The notes beneath the pieces are model-generated. The model had not been told where the DNA came from, did no database searches, and saw only the letters and a list, made by a program, of their open reading frames with translations. Position numbers and translations under genes: made by a program. From positions 1 to 12,249 of the forward strand of contig JAJXXG010000782.1 in assembly GCA_021781255.1 (NCBI GenBank): a stretch of 12,249 nucleotides of DNA, read 5' to 3'. Of this stretch, positions 359 through 11,202 are shown in pieces. Source of the DNA: Acidobacteriota bacterium (GTDB taxonomy: Bacteria; Acidobacteriota; Terriglobia; Terriglobales; Acidobacteriaceae). How positions within the stretch are numbered: the stretch's first letter is position 1; each line of letters starts with the position of its first letter.

Positions 359-3300
359 TCAAGAGCCACTCGCCGCAGAAGAGGACGATGTGCCCGCATC
401 CCCGCTTGTCAGTTGGTAGACCATGTCCCCAACAAAGCGTCTGAAGGACTCGTTTTCAACGAACTGCTTGTACACCTGAGTATCGTCCGTCAAAAGGTGT
501 TGCATCACCTTCCCGAGCGCTTCATCGTGTGCCATCCGCGCTGTGTGCGGCGTATTTTCCTTGGCGTTTTGATAGGCAACATCGGCGGCAACCTTCGGCG
601 CGATGTCCTCCCGGATTCGCTTCGCAACTCGGTCCGAATCAGTGAACAATGTCCCAAACTGGTCGTTGAATGTCTTGAGAATATTGCTAAGGCGATCCAA
701 CTCCGGCTCACTCTTGTGACCACCGCCGTCCGTCGGAGCAGGTTCAATCTCTGCATCGCTATCAGCCAAGGCGATCTGCATTGCTGATTTCTTTTCGACT
801 CGATAGCTATCCATATCGATCGCTTCCAGGATGCCTTGGGACAGATCCTCTTCTTTCGGCGCGGGTAGCTTCGGCGTCAGAAGGTTCAAGAAGATCGACA
901 GCTTTTCCCATCCCGCATTCGTGTACGGAATCACCGAGGAGAGAAAGCTGTAGGTTCGGCAAAAGGCCTTAGCCTTTCCCTTAAAATCGACCTGGGCGTC
1001 TTCATCCAGTGTATCGACGTAAACCGCAACGCACGCGTCGAGGATCGGATCGAGCTTGTCCCGTTCCGCCCCGCTCAGAAAAAGCTCCACGACCTGCTGT
1101 ATCTGTGCGGACGAGTAAACCTGGGCACCATCGAGCGACGCTTTCAGATCGTGCAGCTTGTTTGGGTCTGTCTCCTCCGCAAGAAGTGTGGTGCGGTAGT
1201 AGTCCTGAAAGGCATAGGTGATCGCATCGCTGTTGTTCTGGAAATCCAGAACAAAGCAGTCGTACTTTTGCGGATGAGCGCGATTCAACCGCGAAAGCGT
1301 CTGAACCGCCTTGATGCCGGAAAGTGCTTTGTCCACATACATGGTGTGGAGCAGGGGCTCGTCGTAGCCCGTCTGAAACTTGTCGGCGCAGATCAGAAAA
1401 CGGTATGGATCGCTCTTGATCCTGTCGGCGATGTCTCCGCTTGGGAACCCATTCAGTGACGACTCGCTGACTTTCGCTCCCCCGTACTCGTGCTCGCCAG
1501 AGAAGGCTACGATGGCCTGGTAGGGGCTCTTCCGCTCAATCAGGTAGTCCTTGAAGGCGTGGAAGTATTGGATGGCCCGCTCGATGCCGCTGGTCACGAC
1601 CATCGCACGCGCCTGGCCGCCGATCTTTCCAGCCGCCATCACTTGCTCGTGGAAGTGATCCACCATAATCTCTGCCTTCAGACGGATCGCGTGGTCATGG
1701 CTTTCCACGTAGCGACGCAGCTTCTTCTTCGCTCTCTTTGTGTCGAACTCCGGGTCTTCGTCCGTCTTCTTGATGAGCTTGTAGTAGCTGTTGACTGGCG
1801 TGTAGGCCTTCAGCACATCGAGGATGAAGCGCTCTTCGATGGCTTGCTTCATCGTGTAGGAGTGGAAGGGGCAATGCTTCACCTTGCCCTCCGCATCCGC
1901 TGGCAGCGGGATACCGAACATCTCCAGCGTCTTCGGCTTCGGGGTTGCCGTAAACGCAAAATAGCTGGCGTTCTTCAACATCTTGCGCGCTGCCATGCGC
2001 TTCTCGAGCGCATCGTTCACCGCATCCTCAGGGTCGATTCCATCTTCCTTTGCCTTAGAGGTGAGCGCCTCGCTCATGGCAGCAGAGGTCTTGCCGCCCT
2101 GGCTTGAGTGCGCCTCGTCAATCACGATGGCGAACGTCTTGTCCGCTTCCGTGGCAATCTCGTCAAGGATGAACGGAAACTTCTGCACCGTGCTGACGAT
2201 GATCTTCTTGCCTTGCTCGATGAACTTCCGCAGGTCGCCGGAGTGTTCCGCATGGCCTACCGTTGCACCCACCTGCATGAACTGCTTAATCGTCTTCTGA
2301 ATCTGGTCATCCAAGATACGCCGATCCGTGACGACGATGACCGAATCGAAGACTTCTTTGTCCTTGCGCTTGAGCCCAATCAGTTGATGAGAAAGCCATG
2401 CAATGGAGTTTGACTTTCCGCTGCCGGCAGAATGTTGCAGCAGGTAGCGCTTGCCCGCTCCATTGGCTCGCACATCCGCCAACGCATTGCGAACCAGGTC
2501 GAGCTGGTGATAGCGTGGCCAAACCTGCCTGCGCCGCTTCCTTCCAGTCTTCGGGTCTTTCTCTTCGACAATCTGAGCGTAGTTTTCAAGAATGTTCGTC
2601 AACCCAGCCGGAGTCAGAACCTCTTTCCAGAGGTAGTCCGTCTTCAGGCCGTTGGGATTCGGCGGATTTCCCGCGCCATCGTTATAGCCCTTATTGAAGG
2701 GCAAAAACCACGAAGCCTTGCCTCTCAGCTCCGGGCACATGCGCACTTCGCTGTCGTCCACCGCAAAGTGGACAACGCAGCGACCAAATTCGAAGAGGCG
2801 TTCGCGCGGATCGCGGTCCCGACGGTACTGCTCGACAGCATCCTCTACGGTCTGTTTGGTGAGGCTGTTTTTCAATTCAAACGTGGCAATGGGAAGGCCG
2901 TTGATAAACAGGCAGAGGTCGAGCGCGCGCCGCGTCTCATCCATGCTGTAGGCCAACTGCCGCGTGATGGAGAAGCGGTTCTTCGCGTGCAAGGCCTCGG
3001 CCTTCGCGTTGCCAGGAGAGGGCGTCCCGTAGAACAGGTCAAAGTGCAGCGGCCCGTCGTCGATGCCCTTGCGCAACACATCGATCACGCCGCGCTTGCC
3101 CACTTCGCTGGAGATGCGCGTCAGGAACTTCACTCGCTGGAAGTCCTTCGGGGCATCGGTCATGCCCAACTTACGGAAGGCCTCTGGCTGGGTGGCACTG
3201 AAAAAAGCGAAGAGCTGCGGCACATCGATCGCCACCGCCCGGTCATAGTCCTTGGCGCTGCCGGCAAAGTAGCCGGTGCCAGACGCCTCTGGCCTCTCGG

Positions 3301-3394
3301 CCACGGCGCCAGGGGCGACTGCCAAACCGTGTGTGCCCGTCATGTGGCGCACGATGAGCGTTTCCAAGCCAGCTTCGGAAGTGTTCGTCGGCAT
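359..3394 (-). CDS. hsdR: Type I restriction enzyme, R (restriction/translocase) subunit
   Basis: This 1011-residue protein is the endonuclease and ATP-dependent DNA translocase of a Type I restriction complex (normally R2M2S). The N-terminal part carries a PD-(D/E)XK nuclease signature: D159 in the RALDLCLFINGLP stretch, then E173 and K175 in TFELKN. The SF2 helicase motor follows, with Walker A GSGKS at 324-328, DEAH box at 426-429, TATP (motif III) at 482-485, FQTGYDEP at 673-680 and QTLSRLNR (motif VI) at 698-705. A helical C-terminal region ends in an unusual Ser/Ala/Gly-rich tail. All key residues are present, so the enzyme looks active. The start is supported by GGGGAG five bases before the ATG (3400-3405). 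Unlike the rest of the operon it does not overlap its upstream neighbour: a 140-bp gap with repeated motifs precedes it, which suggests separate control of restriction. Confidence 0.96.
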   Translation of the reverse strand: MPTNTSEAGLETLIVRHMTGTHGLAVAPGAVAERPEASGTGYFAGSAKDYDRAVAIDVPQLFAFFSATQPEAFRKLGMTDAPKDFQRVKFLTRISSEVGKRGVIDVLRKGIDDGPLHFDLFYGTPSPGNAKAEALHAKNRFSITRQLAYSMDETRRALDLCLFINGLPIATFELKNSLTKQTVEDAVEQYRRDRDPRERLFEFGRCVVHFAVDDSEVRMCPELRGKASWFLPFNKGYNDGAGNPPNPNGLKTDYLWKEVLTPAGLTNILENYAQIVEEKDPKTGRKRRRQVWPRYHQLDLVRNALADVRANGAGKRYLLQHSAGSGKSNSIAWLSHQLIGLKRKDKEVFDSVIVVTDRRILDDQIQKTIKQFMQVGATVGHAEHSGDLRKFIEQGKKIIVSTVQKFPFILDEIATEADKTFAIVIDEAHSSQGGKTSAAMSEALTSKAKEDGIDPEDAVNDALEKRMAARKMLKNASYFAFTATPKPKTLEMFGIPLPADAEGKVKHCPFHSYTMKQAIEERFILDVLKAYTPVNSYYKLIKKTDEDPEFDTKRAKKKLRRYVESHDHAIRLKAEIMVDHFHEQVMAAGKIGGQARAMVVTSGIERAIQYFHAFKDYLIERKSPYQAIVAFSGEHEYGGAKVSESSLNGFPSGDIADRIKSDPYRFLICADKFQTGYDEPLLHTMYVDKALSGIKAVQTLSRLNRAHPQKYDCFVLDFQNNSDAITYAFQDYYRTTLLAEETDPNKLHDLKASLDGAQVYSSAQIQQVVELFLSGAERDKLDPILDACVAVYVDTLDEDAQVDFKGKAKAFCRTYSFLSSVIPYTNAGWEKLSIFLNLLTPKLPAPKEEDLSQGILEAIDMDSYRVEKKSAMQIALADSDAEIEPAPTDGGGHKSEPELDRLSNILKTFNDQFGTLFTDSDRVAKRIREDIAPKVAADVAYQNAKENTPHTARMAHDEALGKVMQHLLTDDTQVYKQFVENESFRRFVGDMVYQLTSGDAGTSSSSAASGS

Positions 3395-3534: not shown

Positions 3535-5025
3535 TCAACCGGCCGGATTCCGGTCGGGCATGGCCCAGTGAGGCAAATAGCGCATCAGTTTCGGGGCCGC
3601 GTCGTGGTCGTAAGGAACCAGTTCGCCGGACTCTACCGCCTCTCGAATCAGCCGCGACGCCGTCGCGCTGTTCTTTGCCTCAATCCCAAAACGCTCTCGA
3701 ATCGAAGAGTTTGTCGTTGGCTGCTGGCTCACATAGCGAAGGCAAGCATGCCAGTAGACGGCGCGAATTCGGTCGGCCTTGTCCATCTGGGTCAGGGAAC
3801 GAGGAGCAAAAAGCACTACGCGTGTGTGGTCCGCCGTCGCCTCCACCAGCGGCGCAGGCAATTGATAGAACTCCGTTTGAAAAACGACCTTGTCCCAACC
3901 GCTGCCGCGCTCCTCGCAGATTCCGATCCGCCGCATCAGCGAGGCCAGCGCTTCGTTGCGTGACCTTGGCGGCGAGTCCACAAAGCGTTCAATGGCCACC
4001 AGCGGCACGCCGGGATTACCGATCTCAATGCGGTCCGTAAAGATTTCAATCATAAGGCCAGCGCCAGACACAAAGAAGTCCTGATGAATCAGCGCATTCG
4101 CCACCAACTCGCGCACAGCGAGCTCCGGGTAAAGCGGAAGTTGCTTGCGGAGCGCCTGGCCGATGACTTCGTTTCTGGGAAGCAGACCGTTGATGTATCC
4201 GATCAGCCCTTCAAACCCGTTGGCGTAACCCTTGTTCCCGTCCTGCTCCTTGATCGTCTCCACGCGACTCGTTCCGCGATACTGGATCACGCGCATGGCT
4301 TTGCGTTTGAGGGAGGTAAAATCATCCAACCGCTTGGCAAACAGAATCGCCCCAAGATTGGTGACGCTCCAGCCGCCGGCCTCGCAGACGCGAATCAGAT
4401 TGTCTCCGGCAAGCCCATGAAGAATCGCCTTCTTATTCTCCGGTAAGGGGAGGTTCAGCAACTCGAAGTAGGCCGGGTAATCCAGCAGACGCAAAACTTC
4501 GTCGTCCCGCACATGATCGACGGCGATCCCGTCTTCAAAAAGGGCCTTGTCGAAGAGCCGCCACAGCGCCCGCTCCTTCTCAGAAAACTCTTTCAGCTTC
4601 TTCTTGTAGGAGCCAACGCGAATAAACTCCACTCCGCCGAACTGAACCGGCTGCCGATAGGCGCGCTCAATCTCCAGCAGGACGAACGTCTTCCCATCGA
4701 TCTGCGCATCCAGAAAGCGAAAGTGAATCTTGGGCGTGAGCAGCCGCAGCAGCCAGTTCTCCAGTTCTTCGTTGCCCACCTTGGCGGCGCGTGGTTTGAA
4801 GCTCGTTCCAACTCGTGCGTGACTTGTATCCTCGACACCCCATACCAGATAGCCAAAAGCCTTGCCCACCAGCGCGGCGGAGTTCGACAGGGCCGAAATA
4901 TATTCACCAATCTCCTGCGGATCGGAGTTATTAACCTTGAACTCGACCCACTCCGTCTCCTGCGGCAATTTGCAGAGCTCATGGATCAGACTCGCCAGGT
5001 ATTCCGCTGTGTAGTTCGTCGTCAT
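3535..5025 (-). CDS. AlbA_2 (Schlafen-like) domain / GHKL-type ATP-binding protein
   Basis: This 496-residue protein belongs to the COG2865-type family, usually labelled putative transcriptional regulator or ATP-binding protein. Residues about 20-145 form an AlbA_2/Schlafen domain (ETEWVEFK at 23-30, GYLVWGVED at 58-66). A RecG-like HATPase_c_4 segment follows: ELAVRELVANALIHQDF (301-317), IGNPG (335-339), RNEALASLM (356-364) and ERGSGWDKV (372-380). Residues about 417-475 look like a winged helix. ATG 5025 overlaps the hsdS TGA (ATGA), with GGAG eight bases upstream. Relatives are known as accessory genes in hsd loci, but their job is unsettled: DNA-binding regulator, or a nucleic-acid-targeting effector, since some eukaryotic Schlafens cleave tRNA. 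Its position between hsdS and hsdR matches that of prrC in the Prr system. Family call is firm; function is open. Confidence 0.88.
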   Translation of the reverse strand: MTTNYTAEYLASLIHELCKLPQETEWVEFKVNNSDPQEIGEYISALSNSAALVGKAFGYLVWGVEDTSHARVGTSFKPRAAKVGNEELENWLLRLLTPKIHFRFLDAQIDGKTFVLLEIERAYRQPVQFGGVEFIRVGSYKKKLKEFSEKERALWRLFDKALFEDGIAVDHVRDDEVLRLLDYPAYFELLNLPLPENKKAILHGLAGDNLIRVCEAGGWSVTNLGAILFAKRLDDFTSLKRKAMRVIQYRGTSRVETIKEQDGNKGYANGFEGLIGYINGLLPRNEVIGQALRKQLPLYPELAVRELVANALIHQDFFVSGAGLMIEIFTDRIEIGNPGVPLVAIERFVDSPPRSRNEALASLMRRIGICEERGSGWDKVVFQTEFYQLPAPLVEATADHTRVVLFAPRSLTQMDKADRIRAVYWHACLRYVSQQPTTNSSIRERFGIEAKNSATASRLIREAVESGELVPYDHDAAPKLMRYLPHWAMPDRNPAG

Positions 5026-6458
5026 CCTACTGGCTCCGTGATCTCATCTTCAATCATCTCGCTGTCGTCTTCTACAAGTTCTTCTGGCTCGATGGTCAGT
5101 TCTTCAACTGGCAACTTCGCTGCAACCTCGCGCACATCCAGCTTGCCGGTCACGACGTCAGCAACAAGACGGGTGCGGCACTCGCGGAGAAGGTCGATCT
5201 CGCGTTCAAGGCGGGAAATGGCGGCGAGTATAGGAGCGCAATCTGCGTCAATTCGGTGGACAATGTCCAGTTGTTCATTCGTTGGAGGAAGCAGAATGCG
5301 CCATGATTTAATATGGCGTTGAGAAATCTTAGGCATTGTCCCGCTTGAGCCTCTTGCATCTTGCTCAATTTGCGCGCGACCTACTCGTGATAGAAGTTGA
5401 TATACCAAAAACTCAGGAACAATTTCGCTGTCGCTGACTCGGAGACGATAGATCAGATCGCAAAGAATCGTCCTATTTCGTGAATTGCGAACAATGCAGA
5501 CATCTCCAACTCGGTCCCGCGTATTAGATCTCGTGAGAAGGATATCTCCATCGTGGATCTCAATGCCGGAGGGGATTGTGGCCTTTCGCGACACGGGCTT
5601 GATTGCGGATGGATTAAAGGTGCCGCGTCGCACAGAAGAAAGAGTCAAAACAGTCCATTGGTCGAATGCGATTTCGCCCTCAGCTCCGACTGGACTCCAG
5701 CCCTGTTCGATTCCCCTAAGTAAGCGACCAAAGAGAGGCATCTCCCAATAGTGGGGGATGTCGCCGAGCCAGGGGATGCCGGAGGGTTTGAGGGGGACGG
5801 AGGGATCGAGGCCGCGCGTGACGGCGCGATGAATGTTGGCCTGCTTCTGCTCATTGAGCAGCGCAATCACCTTCCGCTTCGCCCGGATCGCCCGCTCCAG
5901 CCGCCCGTTCGCCCAATCCAGAAACCGTACAATCGCATCCTGCTCATCGGATGGAGGAATTGGAAATGGTTCACATTTCAGAAGTTCCATTGGAATTCGC
6001 ATTCTATGAGCCAGAATTCCATTGCCAATGCGTACTAGACTTTCGTGAAAAGACTTCGTCGCAAAAACGGCGGCCAGGTATCGGGGATTGTCCGTTTCAT
6101 TCCTTTGGGTCAATACGTAATACACCGGGCTAAGGCAACCAGTGTATCGAGAACGTCCAACCGATCCGATGATGACGTTCATGCAGTTCACCACGATGTC
6201 ATCGGGCCGAACTATCTTGTAACGCCCTGTGTCCTCAGACCTCTTGTTGCCAATATTGCCTTTGTCCTCGTAACGAATGACACCGATCCCCTTCATGACT
6301 GAGAGAACCTGCTCTATCTGCCGCTTTTCGTTGGTCTCTTTACGCTCACATAAGACCGATCCAAGTCGTGGCAGATTCCAGTGACCTGGAATATTTCCCA
6401 GCCAAGGCGATCCTGACACTCTATATTCTGCATACGGCCTGAGGTCAGCAATCATCAC
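5022..6458 (-). CDS. hsdS: Type I restriction enzyme, S (specificity) subunit
   Basis: HsdS reads the bipartite DNA target for both modification and restriction. The 478-residue protein shows the classic two-half build. SGSPWLGNIPGHWNLPRLG (15-33) is echoed by SGIPWLGDIPHYWEMPLFG (226-244) at the start of each target recognition domain, and IPPSDEQDAIV (167-177) by LPPTNEQLDIV (390-400) at the start of each conserved helical spacer. Both recognition domains are full length. The end is an extra Glu/Asp-rich tail from about 451 onward that is not part of the core fold. The start is GTG 6458, seven bases after GGAGG; the next codon, ATG 6455, is also possible. Either overlaps the upstream TGA. 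The recognition-domain regions look more AT-rich than the conserved spacers, as expected for exchangeable specificity modules. The target sequence cannot be read from the protein. Confidence 0.95.
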   Translation of the reverse strand: MMIADLRPYAEYRVSGSPWLGNIPGHWNLPRLGSVLCERKETNEKRQIEQVLSVMKGIGVIRYEDKGNIGNKRSEDTGRYKIVRPDDIVVNCMNVIIGSVGRSRYTGCLSPVYYVLTQRNETDNPRYLAAVFATKSFHESLVRIGNGILAHRMRIPMELLKCEPFPIPPSDEQDAIVRFLDWANGRLERAIRAKRKVIALLNEQKQANIHRAVTRGLDPSVPLKPSGIPWLGDIPHYWEMPLFGRLLRGIEQGWSPVGAEGEIAFDQWTVLTLSSVRRGTFNPSAIKPVSRKATIPSGIEIHDGDILLTRSNTRDRVGDVCIVRNSRNRTILCDLIYRLRVSDSEIVPEFLVYQLLSRVGRAQIEQDARGSSGTMPKISQRHIKSWRILLPPTNEQLDIVHRIDADCAPILAAISRLEREIDLLRECRTRLVADVVTGKLDVREVAAKLPVEELTIEPEELVEDDSEMIEDEITEPVG

Positions 6459-8281
6459 AGCCCGGCCTCCGCCAATAGGTTCTTTGGATTCCAGATGCGC
6501 TCGGCAATCTTCCGATAAAGCAAGCTACGCGCTTCGAGGTCCGCCTTGTTGAACTTCTCATACGCATCGAAGGGCAAGCTACTGTTGGCTTTGAAACGGA
6601 GGAAGCCGGGGTTGTGCTCGTAGCACTGCGAGTGGAGTGAGCGAGCGAGCATGTTCTGCGTGTTGTAGTGGGATAGCTTTTCGGCGTAGGTCAGGTCGCC
6701 GTAGCTGGCGTTGAAACTCTTCGGCAGCAGCAGCAAGCCGCCAATTCGATTGCGGTGCTCTGCGAAGTCTGCCGGGTGCGTAAATTCATCCGTGTGACGT
6801 TCGGGGTGGTCGGCCCAGATGTGCTCCACCTCATAGCGGGTCTTGCCCTCACTCACATAATCAAGGTAACGGGATGGCTGCCCTGATTCCGTCTCGACGT
6901 AATCAGTAAGTCGAGCCAGGATGCGGTGCAGCGCATAGCGATTCTGTTGGTGCATCCGCAAGCGGTCGTTCGTAGAGAAAGTCTCGTCTTCCTTGGAAAG
7001 GAAGTCGTGCAGCTTGTGCGCCAGAGCGTCAGGCGCAAGGCCGCGAATGTCACGCATTACCACGAACATGGCGTACTGCATGGTCGAGTAGGCGATGGTA
7101 CGGAAGTTCCAGAGCCTCCAGGTCAGGAGGATATCGAGGTACTGCGCCACGAGGCCAGCCTTGCGGATGACCACAGAGTCCGGATCGTCAGGCCGAAGCG
7201 GCGCGAGTAGCAGCATGTACTGCAGCGTGAAGCCTTGCTGCGCGTTATAGAGCACATGCTCCAGCCCGTTGACAGGCCTCTCCGCTGCATCGATGAGGCG
7301 CAGGTACTGACGACTATAGAAGTCGAAGTCTCGATCAATGAAGCGGAAAAAGTCGTCGCTTTGCTTCAGGCCAACGAGAGGGGCAGCATCGCGCAACCAG
7401 CGGTGGAACTCCGTTCCGATGCGATCGAAGTCTTCAGGCTTCGCCCCCTTCTTACGCTCACGAATCTTGGTTGCATACTGACTTCGTAGCCAGGCTTTGA
7501 AACAATCCGCTTCGACTTCCTTGCCGGCATCGTTCAACTCCCGGATGCGGTCTCGCCACCTCGTGTTCGCGGCTGTGTGCTTGGCCTCGTCGATATTGGC
7601 CAACAGATATCCCTTGAGCATGTCCGTGGGGCTGAGCGACAGTCCGCGGTCGTTCATCGTTTCGAAGATCGTGTAGGCATCATCGTCGGAGTACGCGGTG
7701 ATCTCGACCAGGTGTACGTTCTCAAGAAGCCAGTCGATAAAGTACGGCAGTGCCGCGTTGCGGAGCTCTTCTGGGAAATAGGCCTCCAGATCGCGATAGC
7801 GCTGAACCAGGTTCTGCACCGACTCCGGCCGATCCGTCACGTCGAAGGGCTGACCTTCGTAGAGCGCATCCATAGCTGGCGTGCGCTCGTCGACATGGAG
7901 GTTGAAGGATTTCTGCCCATATCTTTCGGAGAATATGAGCTCATCAACGTTGACCTTTTCGGCGTGTTCCTTCTGCAAATTGCGGAGCAGTACCAGCAGC
8001 AAAGTCAGGCTCGTGAGCCGCTGCTGCCCATCGACGATGTAGCCGACACTCTCTTTCTTGCTGATGATGATGGAGCCGAGAAAATAATGCGGGTAGTCAG
8101 CAACTTTGTTGCGTGCATGGCTCGGCTGGTATTCCTCCAGGAACTTGTCGCTCAGGTCATCCACAAGCTCGCGAATCTGCTTTTCGTGCCACTTGTACTC
8201 CCGCTGGTAGTAGTCAATGGAGTATTTGACTCCCTTGAGCAACTCGCGAACAGTCTGGGCCTTGCCAAGAATCTCTCTCAT
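6455..8281 (-). CDS. GmrSD/SspE-like nuclease: DUF262 NTPase + DUF1524 HNH
   Basis: This 608-residue protein has the N-terminal DUF262 fold with its hallmark DGQQRLTSL (84-92) and the second conserved block FETMNDRGLSLSPTDMLK (206-223). A helical middle leads to a C-terminal DUF1524 His-Me/HNH nuclease with EVEHIWADH (484-492), H509-R-N-R-I-G-G and a conserved SFNASYGD (522-529). In GmrSD, BrxU and SspE the DUF262 part binds or hydrolyses nucleotide and senses modified DNA (glucosylated cytosine or phosphorothioate), and the DUF1524 part nicks or cuts DNA. Both key motifs are intact, so an active nuclease is likely; what it senses is unknown. The gene is locked between hsdM and hsdS: its ATG overlaps the hsdM TGA (8278-8281) and its TGA overlaps the hsdS start. 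That implies fixed co-expression with the modification enzyme rather than chance proximity. Confidence 0.93.
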   Translation of the reverse strand: MREILGKAQTVRELLKGVKYSIDYYQREYKWHEKQIRELVDDLSDKFLEEYQPSHARNKVADYPHYFLGSIIISKKESVGYIVDGQQRLTSLTLLLVLLRNLQKEHAEKVNVDELIFSERYGQKSFNLHVDERTPAMDALYEGQPFDVTDRPESVQNLVQRYRDLEAYFPEELRNAALPYFIDWLLENVHLVEITAYSDDDAYTIFETMNDRGLSLSPTDMLKGYLLANIDEAKHTAANTRWRDRIRELNDAGKEVEADCFKAWLRSQYATKIRERKKGAKPEDFDRIGTEFHRWLRDAAPLVGLKQSDDFFRFIDRDFDFYSRQYLRLIDAAERPVNGLEHVLYNAQQGFTLQYMLLLAPLRPDDPDSVVIRKAGLVAQYLDILLTWRLWNFRTIAYSTMQYAMFVVMRDIRGLAPDALAHKLHDFLSKEDETFSTNDRLRMHQQNRYALHRILARLTDYVETESGQPSRYLDYVSEGKTRYEVEHIWADHPERHTDEFTHPADFAEHRNRIGGLLLLPKSFNASYGDLTYAEKLSHYNTQNMLARSLHSQCYEHNPGFLRFKANSSLPFDAYEKFNKADLEARSLLYRKIAERIWNPKNLLAEAGL

Positions 8282-10599
8282 TGCTTGCCACCCCCTATGA
8301 TCGCGCTCAACAGCCCTTCGGATTCTTGCTCAATGGCCAGAATATCTGCGCTGATCTCTTCGAGCGTGCGCAGCGGCTGCGGCTTGTAAAAGTGCCGCGT
8401 GAAGCTGACTTCGTATCCGATCTTGGTGGCGTCTTCCTTGACCCATGCATCGGGTGTGTAGGGCAGCACCTCGCGACGGATAAACGCCTCGATGCCGCCC
8501 TCTTCGAGCAGCGGAATCTGCTCGGTATCGCGCAGATCGGAGTCCGGCTCGTATTCGAGCACAAGCTTCCTGTCGCCTGCGGGCGAGGCGAAGCGGCCGT
8601 GGATGGGATCAGCCGTCGCCTTGCCAGGCCTGTGGACCTTGGCGATGACGGGCGGGGCAGTCTCATCGCGCCGACTGACGGCACGAAGGATGAGCTTTAG
8701 GTCAGCGGCGGAGAGTTTGATGGCCAGCTTGTTCAGCTCGTCGTCGACGCGTTCGCGGAAGATGTTGTGATCTTCGAAAAGCATCTCTCCCAACCCTGCG
8801 CGCAACTTCGTGGCTACTTCAACCAGCCGCCCATCGCGCTCCCACGTCTTCGAGTCCAGCAGCTTCTTTTTCTTCTTTTCCGGCAGGCCTTTTTTCGTTC
8901 CACCGCCTTCTTCCTCGTCCTCTTCTTCTGTCTCGGCTCCCCAGTCGTTCAATCGGACTTCCAGTGCGGGTAAGATCTTCGCGAATGCGGTGAATAGCTG
9001 ATCGCCGAACTCTTCATAGAGGACAGAACGAATCTCTTCGTCTCCAGAGGCGAAGCGGAGCGTCTCGATTGCCTTGAGGGACAGTTGGCTGTGCAGGCGG
9101 AGCGGGCGCTCTACGGTTACCTTCCAGTATCCGAAGGCGGCATTGGGGAATATCTTCGACTCCGGGGTCTCCTTGAACTCAAGGAACGTGCGGCTGATGC
9201 GTTCAATGTCCTCGGGAGAAAGCTCGCAGTTCTTCTTGCCAAGGTTCTTGCGGAGCGGCTTGAACCACTGACTGGCGTCGATCAACTGAACTTGGCCACG
9301 GCGATGTTCCGGTTTCCTATTGGACAGCACCCATATATAGGTAGCGATGCCGGTGTTGTAGAAGAGGTTCAGCGGCAGAGCAACAATAGCTTCGACCCAA
9401 TCGTTTTCGATGAGCCAACGGCGAATGTTACTCTCTCCCTGGCCGGCGTCTCCGGTGAAGAGCGACGAGCCATTGTGAACTTCTGCGATGCGGCTGCCGA
9501 GGGCTGACTTGCCGTTCATCTTTGAGGCCATGTTGGCAAGGAAAAGCATTTGGCCATCGCTGGAGCGAGTGACAAGAGAAAGCTCTTCGCCTTCGTGCAT
9601 GACCTTAAATCGCAGGTCGCGCATTCCGTCCTTGCCCCCCATCGCTTCAAGGTCCTTCTTCCAGCTTTTGCCGTAAGGCGGATTGGCGAGCATGAAGTCG
9701 AACTCTTGCGCGGGAAACGCGTCGTGAGCAAGGGTTGACCACTCCGCTCCGCCAACGATGTGGTCCGCGCTTTCGCCTTCGCCCTTGAGCAGCATGTCGG
9801 CCTTGCAGACCGCGTAAGTCTCGGGATTGATCTCCTGGCCGTAGAGGAGGCACTTCACGGATTGGTTTTGCTTCGCCGCAATCTCGATCAGGGTCTGCTC
9901 TGCGACTGTGAGCATTCCACCGGTTCCGCAGGCGCAGTCGTATAGCAGGTACGTCCCCGACTTGATCTCTTTGTCAACGGGCAGGAATATCAGATTCGCC
10001 ATGAGGCGAACGGCGTCTCTCGGAGTCCAGTGTTCGCCTGCTTCCTCGTTATTGTCTTCGTTGAACTTGCGAACCAGCTCCTCAAAGATGGTCCCCATCG
10101 AGTGATTGTCAACGCCTGCCGGGGAAAGATCGATTTCTGGATCGAGGAGCTTGTTGATCAGTGTGCCGAGGGCATCGGCTTTGGACAACGTCGGAAGCTG
10201 ATTGCGGAACTTGAAGTTGTCGAGGATGTCCTGGACGTTGGGAGAAAAGCCGTTGAGATAGTCCTCGAAATCTGCGAGCAACTGCTGCTGGCTTCCGCGA
10301 GATTTGAGATCACGGAGAGTGAACTTCGACGTGTTGTAAAAAGCCTGGCCGGACGCACCGCACAGAGCAGCTCGTTGCTCTGTGATGAGAGCGGCATCCA
10401 GCATATTCTTGGTATCGAGGACGGCTTGCTTCGTTGGTTCAAGCACCGCATCCATGCGACGGATCACGCACATGGGGAGAATGACATCGGGGTACTTGCC
10501 GCGCTTGAATAGATCACGCAGAACATCATCGGCGATACCCCAGATAAAGGAGACGATTTTGTTATGTGTAGCCTGGTCCACTATTGTTTTTCGCTCCAT
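8278..10599 (-). CDS. hsdM: Type I restriction enzyme, M (N6-adenine methyltransferase) subunit
   Basis: HsdM transfers methyl groups from SAM to adenine at the site chosen by HsdS, protecting host DNA. Counting from ATG 10599 (773 residues), the N-terminal HsdM helical domain begins THNKIVSFIWG, HWTPRDAVRLM lies at about 190-200, the SAM motif DCACGTGG at 221-228, and the catalytic NPPY at 306-309. Unlike a compact HsdM of about 500 residues, it goes on past a Glu-rich then Lys-rich linker (about 555-580) into an extra 190-residue C-terminal region. The start is uncertain: an in-frame ATG at 10632 would add 11 residues and has a GGGA eight bases upstream. 10599 is preferred because relatives begin just before THNKIVSF. 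It is the first gene of the leftward operon and overlaps the next by ATGA. Confidence 0.95.
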   Translation of the reverse strand: MERKTIVDQATHNKIVSFIWGIADDVLRDLFKRGKYPDVILPMCVIRRMDAVLEPTKQAVLDTKNMLDAALITEQRAALCGASGQAFYNTSKFTLRDLKSRGSQQQLLADFEDYLNGFSPNVQDILDNFKFRNQLPTLSKADALGTLINKLLDPEIDLSPAGVDNHSMGTIFEELVRKFNEDNNEEAGEHWTPRDAVRLMANLIFLPVDKEIKSGTYLLYDCACGTGGMLTVAEQTLIEIAAKQNQSVKCLLYGQEINPETYAVCKADMLLKGEGESADHIVGGAEWSTLAHDAFPAQEFDFMLANPPYGKSWKKDLEAMGGKDGMRDLRFKVMHEGEELSLVTRSSDGQMLFLANMASKMNGKSALGSRIAEVHNGSSLFTGDAGQGESNIRRWLIENDWVEAIVALPLNLFYNTGIATYIWVLSNRKPEHRRGQVQLIDASQWFKPLRKNLGKKNCELSPEDIERISRTFLEFKETPESKIFPNAAFGYWKVTVERPLRLHSQLSLKAIETLRFASGDEEIRSVLYEEFGDQLFTAFAKILPALEVRLNDWGAETEEEDEEEGGGTKKGLPEKKKKKLLDSKTWERDGRLVEVATKLRAGLGEMLFEDHNIFRERVDDELNKLAIKLSAADLKLILRAVSRRDETAPPVIAKVHRPGKATADPIHGRFASPAGDRKLVLEYEPDSDLRDTEQIPLLEEGGIEAFIRREVLPYTPDAWVKEDATKIGYEVSFTRHFYKPQPLRTLEEISADILAIEQESEGLLSAIIGGGKQ

Positions 10600-10651
10600 T
10601 TCAACCCAAATAACCGAAAGACCTGACCTCATGGAAGTTGTCCCAAGCCCT

Positions 10652-10667
10652 CAGCAGCTACCTGCTG
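10652..10667. repeat. Inverted repeat in the hsdM leader
   Basis: CAGCAG (10652-10657) and CTGCTG (10662-10667) flank a 4-nt spacer. It lies just upstream of the longer hsdM reading frame and beside the palindrome at 10671-10689. It could be a small RNA hairpin in the hsdM 5' leader or part of an operator. Short arms make chance possible. Confidence 0.4.
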
Positions 10668-10670
10668 CAA

Positions 10671-10689
10671 TGGGGTTTTCAAAACCCCA
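10671..10689. promoter_or_regulatory. Perfect palindrome TGGGGTTTTCAAAACCCCA, candidate operator
   Basis: The 9-bp arms are perfect around a single central base (10680). No T-run follows on either strand, so it is not a terminator. It lies 72 bp upstream of the preferred hsdM start and 39 bp upstream of the longer one, between hsdM and any leftward promoter, for which TTGACT at 10726-10721 (-) is a possible -35 box. An operator for a dimeric repressor or activator is the simplest reading; a leader hairpin is the alternative. The binding protein is not known. Confidence 0.55.
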
Positions 10690-10820
10690 ATGAAATCACA
10701 AGGATATGGTAAATCGGTCCAGTCAACAGTCTAAGGCCCAAGGCCGTGAAGCCGCTGATTTTATCCAATCCAGCGGTAAACCCCGAAAGGCCTTTGAGAC
10801 ATGCGCCGCTTGTCCACGAG

Positions 10821-10844
10821 CGGTTACTTCTCCGAAAGTAACCG
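10821..10844. promoter_or_regulatory. Candidate HipB operator 1 (CGGTTACTT / AAGTAACCG)
   Basis: A perfect 9-bp inverted repeat, CGGTTACTT at 10821-10829 and AAGTAACCG at 10836-10844, has a 6-bp spacer and sits about 70-90 bp before the hipB start. The same GGTTAC half-site recurs at 10874-10879. HipB proteins are autoregulators that bind several upstream inverted repeats, so this is probably one of its sites. The sequence differs from the E. coli HipB box (TATCC-N8-GGATA). Confidence 0.6.
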
Positions 10845-10854
10845 AACGCGCACT

Positions 10855-10882
10855 TTGCAATATGTCACCGATCGGTTACTCT
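10855..10882 (+). promoter_or_regulatory. Candidate hipBA promoter
   Basis: TTGCAA (10855-10860) and TACTCT (10877-10882), 16 bp apart, are a passable -35/-10 pair placed about 30 bp before the hipB ATG. The palindrome at 10864-10879 fills the spacer, as expected for repression by steric block. The boxes are weak matches to the sigma-70 consensus. Confidence 0.4.
10864..10879. promoter_or_regulatory. Candidate HipB operator 2, centred on ACCGATCGGT
   Basis: A perfect 10-bp palindrome at 10867-10876 extends to 16 bp with one mismatched pair (GTCACC ... GGTTAC). It shares the GGTTAC half-site with the inverted repeat at 10821-10844 and overlaps the presumed hipBA promoter. Half-site spacing differs between the two operators (10 bp versus 4 bp between the hexamers), which is odd if a single dimer binds both. 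Confidence 0.55.
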
Positions 10883-10895
10883 TGGATTGCAGCGC

Positions 10896-10903
10896 AGGGG
10901 AGG
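10896..10903 (+). promoter_or_regulatory. hipB ribosome binding site
   Basis: AGGGGAGG lies eight bases before the ATG at 10912. It decides the start of hipB: an in-frame ATG at 10801 would add 37 residues unlike any HipB and would place the operators inside the coding region. Confidence 0.85.
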
Positions 10904-10911
10904 TTCCGGCT

Positions 10912-11202
10912 ATGCGGATACGGACTGCAACTGATTTAGGCGCTTTCATTCGGGAGCGCCGCGTCAAGCTGGCGATGGATCAAAGTGACCTGGCGGAGAA
11001 GGCGGGAACTAGCCGCAAGTGGATCGTGGAAGTGGAGCAGGGGAAACCGCGCGCTGAAATCGGCCTTGTTCTCCGAACACTCAAGGCATTAGGAGTTTCT
11101 CTTGATCTTGCTGCTGACCGCTCGCAGAAGGCGGCCCCGGCCAGCGAACCCAGGAAGGTAGACATTAACAGCATTCTCGATTCCCTGAAGAAGCGCCCAT
11201 GA
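10912..11202 (+). CDS. hipB: HipB-type antitoxin, XRE-family repressor
   Basis: This 96-residue protein is an XRE (lambda Cro/C1) helix-turn-helix protein. LGAFIRERRVKLAMDQSDLA (9-28) leads into the recognition-helix region KAGTSRKWIVEVEQGKPRAE (30-49), followed by TLKALGVSLDL. The Ala/Pro/Glu linker and the basic C-terminal tail NSILDSLKKRP are the part that in HipB families contacts partner toxin and controls turnover. HipB neutralises HipA and represses its own operon. The start at 10912 is fixed by an excellent ribosome binding site. Its TGA overlaps the hipA ATG (ATGA, 11199-11202), giving coupled translation, as is usual for the pair. Inverted repeats upstream are probably its operators. 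The identification rests on domain plus context. Confidence 0.92.
   Translation: MRIRTATDLGAFIRERRVKLAMDQSDLAEKAGTSRKWIVEVEQGKPRAEIGLVLRTLKALGVSLDLAADRSQKAAPASEPRKVDINSILDSLKKRP

Follow-up and report, generated by a model that had tools for sequence, protein, structure and literature searches.

A GmrSD-family nuclease gene between hsdM and hsdS of an acidobacterial Type I restriction-modification operon, probably carried as a passenger defence gene

Genes of the GmrSD family (DUF262/DUF1524) are found in the company of Type I restriction-modification (R-M) systems. Machnicka et al. 2015 (PMC4619093) discuss RloF and report that, among defence genes, those of Type I systems most often neighbour GmrSD homologues. 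PMC4619093 and PMC5183652 describe a DUF262 gene and further open reading frames (ORFs) lying between R and S or between M and S in Type I loci; the latter paper cites Miller et al. 2005 for C. jejuni ORFs that are located between hsdS and hsdM and called 'mlo'. TgvAB is reported to be active against phages carrying modified cytosines (PMC11411939, PMC12409362), and for DarTG2, located in the hsdS-hsdR gap of an E. coli Type I operon, the authors propose a potential recombination hotspot (PMC12255303). With TgvAB and RloF, Type I-embedded GmrSD genes as such have already been published. Here we describe a new and very well conserved addition to these embedded GmrSD nucleases, encoded between hsdM and hsdS of a Type I operon on a 12,249-nucleotide stretch of DNA from an Acidobacteriota bacterium (contig JAJXXG010000782.1; hereafter the window). 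We consider it probable that this nuclease is a self-sufficient, Type IV-like passenger defence gene carried as cargo of the operon, and not part of a joint machine, based on its intact DUF262 and DUF1524 domains, its strong conservation, the several cargos found at the same junction, and its occurrence where Type I genes are absent or decayed.

The window nuclease differs from each of its described relatives. TgvAB likewise consists of DUF262/DUF1524 genes embedded in a Type I operon and has the DGQQR motif and a His-Me finger, but according to its description it comprises two proteins, both required, on the hsdR-hsdS side like RloF, whereas the window has one protein at hsdM-hsdS; RloF, also compared by description, is a DUF262 gene between hsdS and hsdR. 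DarTG2 is similar in that unrelated defence genes reside within a Type I operon, but is a toxin-antitoxin pair. BrxU (GmrSD family, PDB 7P9K/7P9M) is approximately 15% identical to the window nuclease, has DHIYP in place of EHIWA, and adjoins BREX rather than a Type I system. The predicted fold of the window nuclease matches DndI, SspE, and BrxU, of which DndI and SspE are closest. These two (9JFL; 6JIV, 7DRS) read phosphorothioate made by Dnd/Ssp, and no dnd or ssp modification genes are present among the window's genes. The DndI phosphorothioate patch (P23/Y25/Q26) is not matched: Asp occupies the P23 place in 34/35 and 44/44 rows of two alignments, making such a patch unlikely in this family, while Y25 is kept in 28/35 rows (F in 7) and Q26 in all. 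No description of a nuclease family in the hsdM-nuclease-hsdS arrangement was found in the available parts of the literature covered (subscription papers and preprints lay outside its scope), and PMC7641849, PMC12373910, PMC12707154, PMC8713573, and PMC10030836 had, in the parts available, no bearing on the hsdM-hsdS layout.

Both GmrSD_N (residues 12-226; expect value (E) 6.6e-33; 114.9 bits against a Pfam cut-off of 33.2) and GmrSD_C (residues 444-587; E 3.6e-8; 33.8 bits against 23) exceed the Pfam cut-off in one chain, which by domain test places the window protein in the GmrSD family. An earlier model-generated note (the sequence-only reading) had proposed an intact DUF262-DUF1524 protein of the GmrSD/SspE/BrxU class with DGQQR and HNH-type motifs, and had numbered two of its residues D84 and H487. 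The domain matches bear out the intact protein, domain, defence-library, and predicted-fold matches agree on its class, and the numbering is correct (DGQQR at residues 84-88; His-Me/HNH motif beginning E486-H487). The DUF262 motifs QR (Q26-R27), DGQQR (D84-R88), and FxxxN (F206...N210), named as such in PMC11411939, are present in all 35 aligned rows (window included); in the same rows D84-R88, F206, N210, E486, H487, R510, and N524 are invariant and N511 is retained in 32/35. The His-Me finger thus has its catalytic histidine and two asparagines (H487, N511, N524), the family motif being EHIWA, from which the proline of EHxxP is missing. The best defence-library matches, obtained with PADLOC, were HEC-06 (E 2.7e-38), Orf5 (E 5.1e-32), and SspE (E 7.8e-15), yet these cover partial stretches and no listed model spans the nuclease in one stretch over its full length; no NCBIfam model matched it.

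The ratio of nonsynonymous to synonymous substitution rates (dN/dS) was 0.05-0.10 in six of ten nuclease gene pairs, with dS > 1 in five of those six; three of the remaining pairs were saturated and one (loci L003-L004) gave 0.35 on very few changes. Selection on the gene looks strong by these estimates. Given the low ratios in six pairs, and given that 7995 of the 8000 candidates scored in a database search had E <= 0.001, the family is not a chance ORF; among the 120 matches listed, all were at least 84% identical. A scan of GTDB contigs returned 16 nuclease loci (67-90% identity) from Acidobacteriota, Pseudomonadota, Verrucomicrobiota, Chlorobiota, Spirochaetota, and Chloroflexota. Presence in whole-genome samples from four phyla (E <= 1e-50) was patchy (3/398, 4/297, 7/288, and 11/301 genomes, with the genome at the centre of each sample being counted). 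A pattern scan of IMG/VR found no relative of the window nuclease, and phage records gave one partial match.

Placement was assessed for 46 nuclease rows out of 47 loci (L072 is without a row); two of the whole-genome matches, a fragment in genome G1133 (L039) and a copy with stop codons in G1216 (L040), are left out of these rows. Hsd genes were located by phmmer with iterated queries, which a divergent hsdS may escape (L060, L070). Of the 18 rows of at least 66% identity, which include the window, 12 have the nuclease gene placed between hsdM and hsdS with all three on the same strand; these 12 come from several phyla, and 10 of them directly adjoin both genes. The sequence-only reading had the nuclease between hsdM and hsdS and overlapping both, as it does by 4 base pairs (bp) on each side, and would have lost ground had the synteny been confined to one genome; it recurs across phyla. 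In L002 a YhcG gene precedes the nuclease within hsdM-hsdS, and in L007 it is accompanied by YhcG, a short scar ORF, and RhuM. The L007 scar ORF (4368-4589), with a cargo gene on either side, is a fusion of an hsdS start with an hsdM end, such as recombination of two M-cargo-S units might leave. Elsewhere among these rows the nuclease is flanked by decayed hsdM and hsdS (L003, L004), follows the order M-S-nuclease-R (L010, L012), has only opposite-strand hsdR and hsdS nearby (L011), or has no hsd gene nearby (L015). The 28 rows below 66% identity include one M-nuclease-S case (L056), which has the AlbA gene and the window's five-gene order; the nuclease directly follows hsdS in L048 and L067 and lies ahead of hsdM in L055 and L064, 8 further rows have some hsd gene within 9 kilobases, and in the other 15 no hsd gene is seen, among them short or broken rows and rows that clearly lie elsewhere (e.g. 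Pantoea and E. coli plasmid genes). The obligatory linkage to hsdM/hsdS expected of an integral Type I subunit is therefore not seen.

Comparison of protein identities to the window indicates that the nuclease gene has moved between Type I families. The L010 nuclease is 76% identical beside an HsdM of 47% and an HsdR of 38%, that is, in a different Type I family; L061 combines 68% (nuclease) with 47% (HsdM), and L056 shows the reverse (nuclease 52%, HsdM 65%, AlbA gene 65%). Strict co-inheritance of nuclease and HsdM was rejected on these three loci, though L008, L014, and L016 fit it.

The hsdM-hsdS junction itself was surveyed in 398 genomes of Pseudomonadota, the phylum of G010 (the record behind L010), of which 18 gave 20 matches to the window's HsdM at E <= 1e-120. 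Of these 20 related loci, 12 have hsdM directly next to or overlapping hsdS, 7 have a gap of more than 300 bp between the two genes, and one (L083) is cut by a contig end; no close relative of the window nuclease was found in any of them (best 76 bits). Cargo could be assigned to a family in six of the seven filled junctions, and five hold genes unrelated to the nuclease (Table 1). A 95-residue ORF in L102 had no Pfam match and is RhuM-like by eye. The TPR fillers of L097 and L098 carry a GSGKT stretch (by eye); we presume that they resemble STAND-type defence ATPases. In L097, L098, and L102 the first 4 bp of the cargo likewise overlap the hsdM end, and the junction accepts unrelated genes through a like overlap or a start just past the hsdM stop. 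Since unrelated fillers share this overlap, it is by itself no argument for a joint machine. Other GmrSD proteins are encoded in the hsdS-hsdR gap (L105, L110) and upstream of hsdM (one Citrobacter and one Enterobacter plasmid), and no GmrSD gene is present on an Aeromonas plasmid whose hsdM is similar. The junction between hsdM and hsdS resembles a slot that one defence gene or another can occupy, and the layout is better explained by such a general cargo slot than by tight coupling. Novelty had been claimed for that coupling; the claim is weak, as the junction takes unrelated genes with like overlap and the 'mlo' ORFs precede it.

Several loci further separate the nuclease from functional Type I genes. 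L003 and L004, both named Opitutus sp. GAS368 and counted as one lineage, hold a whole nuclease gene between hsdM and hsdS remnants of 103 and 101 amino acids (gene start and gene end). Assembly error was rejected as the cause of this decay, as two separate metagenome-assembled genomes share the same junctions and are 98.1% identical over 3363 bp; by eye, the hsdS remnant departs from the L005 frame past its conserved end. The hsdM remnant (L003 8693-9004 versus L004 4882-5193) has a dS of 0.43 and the adjoining nuclease gene a dS of 0.01; because the remnant diverges far more than the nuclease, this comparison suggests recent recombination across the nuclease gene. In L015 an intact nuclease gene (9001-10827) lies between rplI (Ribosomal_L9) and dnaB (DnaB), a core-operon place. 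No HsdM relative was detected at E 1e-5 in G015 (L015) and G1068 (L063), two of seven genomes searched, and no Methylase_S (HsdS domain) in G015, G1068, and G004, three of five genomes (control positive in 9/14); N6_Mtase matches of some kind occur in each of the five and are weak in these three. A single neighbouring ORF tested per locus in L063 and L066 had no family match. Where hsdS is present beside the nuclease, its target domains are only 9-33% identical to the window's (20-residue blocks, 9 other loci), while the conserved HsdS repeats reach 57-81% and the nuclease is 52-90% identical in the same loci.

These observations bear on four other explanations. The nuclease could read HsdMS adenine methylation in the manner of SspE or DndI: either, as in DndI, by attacking DNA that lacks the mark while leaving the host alone, or, as in SspE, by firing only in cells that have it. 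Its position within the methyltransferase pair with overlap on both sides, its nearest folds, and the toxicity of DndI without its DNA mark, which the mark releases (PMC11662687), are in keeping with this, but the nuclease is present where no HsdS domain was found and beside decayed hsdM/hsdS, its conservation contrasts with that of the HsdS target domains, and Asp stands at the DndI P23 place, so that we consider such licensing unlikely. The same toxicity, together with the co-expression likely to result from overlap, would also be compatible with a guard or addiction module in which the nuclease harms the cell upon loss of the Type I methylase and the operon is thereby kept; persistence of an intact nuclease gene with hsdM and hsdS as remnants or not found makes this very improbable. 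Both a licensing and a guard role were rejected on the remnant loci and the loci without Type I genes. Of the two triggers suggested by the sequence-only reading, phage-modified DNA fits better, while sensing of the HsdMS mark is disfavoured by genomes without an HsdS domain or HsdM relative, the divergent HsdS target domains, and movement between Type I families. An integral subunit that docks on HsdM or HsdS and alters restriction, e.g. as a second nuclease steered by HsdS, would account for the 12/18 closest rows and for the partial inheritance of the M-S place, and is nevertheless improbable given nucleases after hsdS, ahead of hsdM, in a different Type I family (L010), or alone, and given that hsdM and hsdS adjoin in 12/20 related loci, none of which has a close nuclease relative. 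Finally, patchy presence might point to a neutral hitch-hiker that is functionless in these hosts, a view we regard as highly unlikely in light of the dN/dS estimates and the unchanged catalytic residues.

While we favour a self-sufficient passenger, a number of points weigh against it. The proposed modified-cytosine target is borrowed from relatives, and the closest fold, that of DndI, belongs to a protein working with a host DNA mark. In L008 (80/81%), L014 (67/71%), and L016 (73/73%) the nuclease and HsdM have similar identities, as co-inheritance would be expected to give. A first tree was built from 35 and a second from 34 nuclease rows out of 46 (L004, L006, L044, L049-L051, L064, and L068-L071 absent from both; L052, a long branch, dropped from the second, in which L062 was present but not counted), and the label 'between M and S, remnant included' (13 rows versus 20) required 5 changes against 10.5 when shuffled (1/500 as low). 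The M-S place is therefore partly inherited and some benefit of it is possible, although the finer label M-nuclease-S did not cluster (8 changes versus 9.0 shuffled; 131/500 as low). One contig of G003 (L003) bears both a strong N6_Mtase match and a Methylase_S match, and several matches of each kind occur in G1019 (L066), so that a mark could come from elsewhere and these two genomes are no test of independence; likewise, as genome completeness is not stated, absence of HsdS or HsdM is not proof. There is also a slim chance of a functional tie to HsdMS in the crown clade that retains the M-nuclease-S place, with the nuclease bound to HsdMS or answering N6-methyladenine generally and not one recognition sequence. 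If true, this would be a Type I/Type IV hybrid, one operon deciding by methyl state and phage modification.

As a passenger, the nuclease would complement Type I against modified phage DNA, with HsdRMS attacking unmodified DNA. By analogy with BrxU, it would sample DNA as a dimer or by cycling between dimer and monomer; DUF262, an NTPase/sensor-type domain, would bind nucleoside triphosphate and so regulate the enzyme, and the DUF1524 His-Me finger would nick or cut DNA bearing a phage base modification, most likely a hypermodified cytosine, as for GmrSD, BrxU, and TgvAB. The overlaps would serve co-expression, not a joint enzyme.

The host operon encodes full-length HsdR, HsdM, and HsdS, each with its own motifs, in the minus-strand order hsdM, nuclease, hsdS, SLFN_AlbA_2/HATPase_c_4, hsdR (Table 1). 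A gene of the SLFN_AlbA_2/HATPase_c_4 type also occurs at the hsdS-hsdR gap in L056, L100, and L103, and is a second recurrent passenger in the window's Type I family. A divergent toxin-antitoxin pair adjoins the operon on the plus strand, consisting of a hipB-like helix-turn-helix gene (10801-11202; TIGR03070 71.0 bits, just below the cut-off of 71.65) and an overlapping hipA-like gene (Couple_hipA + HipA_C) that starts at 11199 and continues past the window end (12249).

Table 1. Features of the Type I operon in the window and genes filling the hsdM-hsdS junction in related loci (aa, amino acids).
Locus	Feature	Position	Strand	Remarks
Window	hsdM, Type I DNA methyltransferase	8278..10632	minus	784 aa; HsdM_N + N6_Mtase; NPPY at 317
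Window	hsdM/nuclease overlap, ATGA	8278..8281	minus	4 bp; purine-rich Shine-Dalgarno-like stretch ahead of start (by eye)
Window	GmrSD-family nuclease gene	6455..8281	minus	608 aa; DUF262/GmrSD_N + DUF1524/GmrSD_C; DGQQR 84-88, EH 486-487, N511, N524
Window	nuclease/hsdS overlap	6455..6458	minus	4 bp; hsdS starts GTG, ATG immediately next
Window	hsdS, specificity subunit	5022..6458	minus	478 aa; Methylase_S; two variable target domains between conserved repeats
Window	SLFN_AlbA_2 + HATPase_c_4 accessory gene	3535..5025	minus	496 aa; second embedded gene; 4-bp overlap with hsdS
Window	hsdR, Type I endonuclease/translocase	359..3394	minus	1011 aa; HSDR_N + helicase; GSGKS 324, DEAH 426, FELKN 172
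L099, L104	Abi_2
L097	TPR protein	5303-8110		936 aa
L098	protein similar to L097 filler	4750-7551		934 aa; family by likeness to L097
L102	nucleotidyltransferase + HepT pair
L095	different GmrSD_N protein
L106	ORF			120 aa; no Pfam match

Taken as a slot, the hsdM-hsdS junction makes the genes found in it candidates for defence-system screening. A further lesson is caution, as gene overlap does not equal functional coupling; here the overlap belongs to the slot, whatever its filler. For the family itself, the finding puts on record a GmrSD subfamily, widespread and highly conserved, that no NCBIfam model matches.

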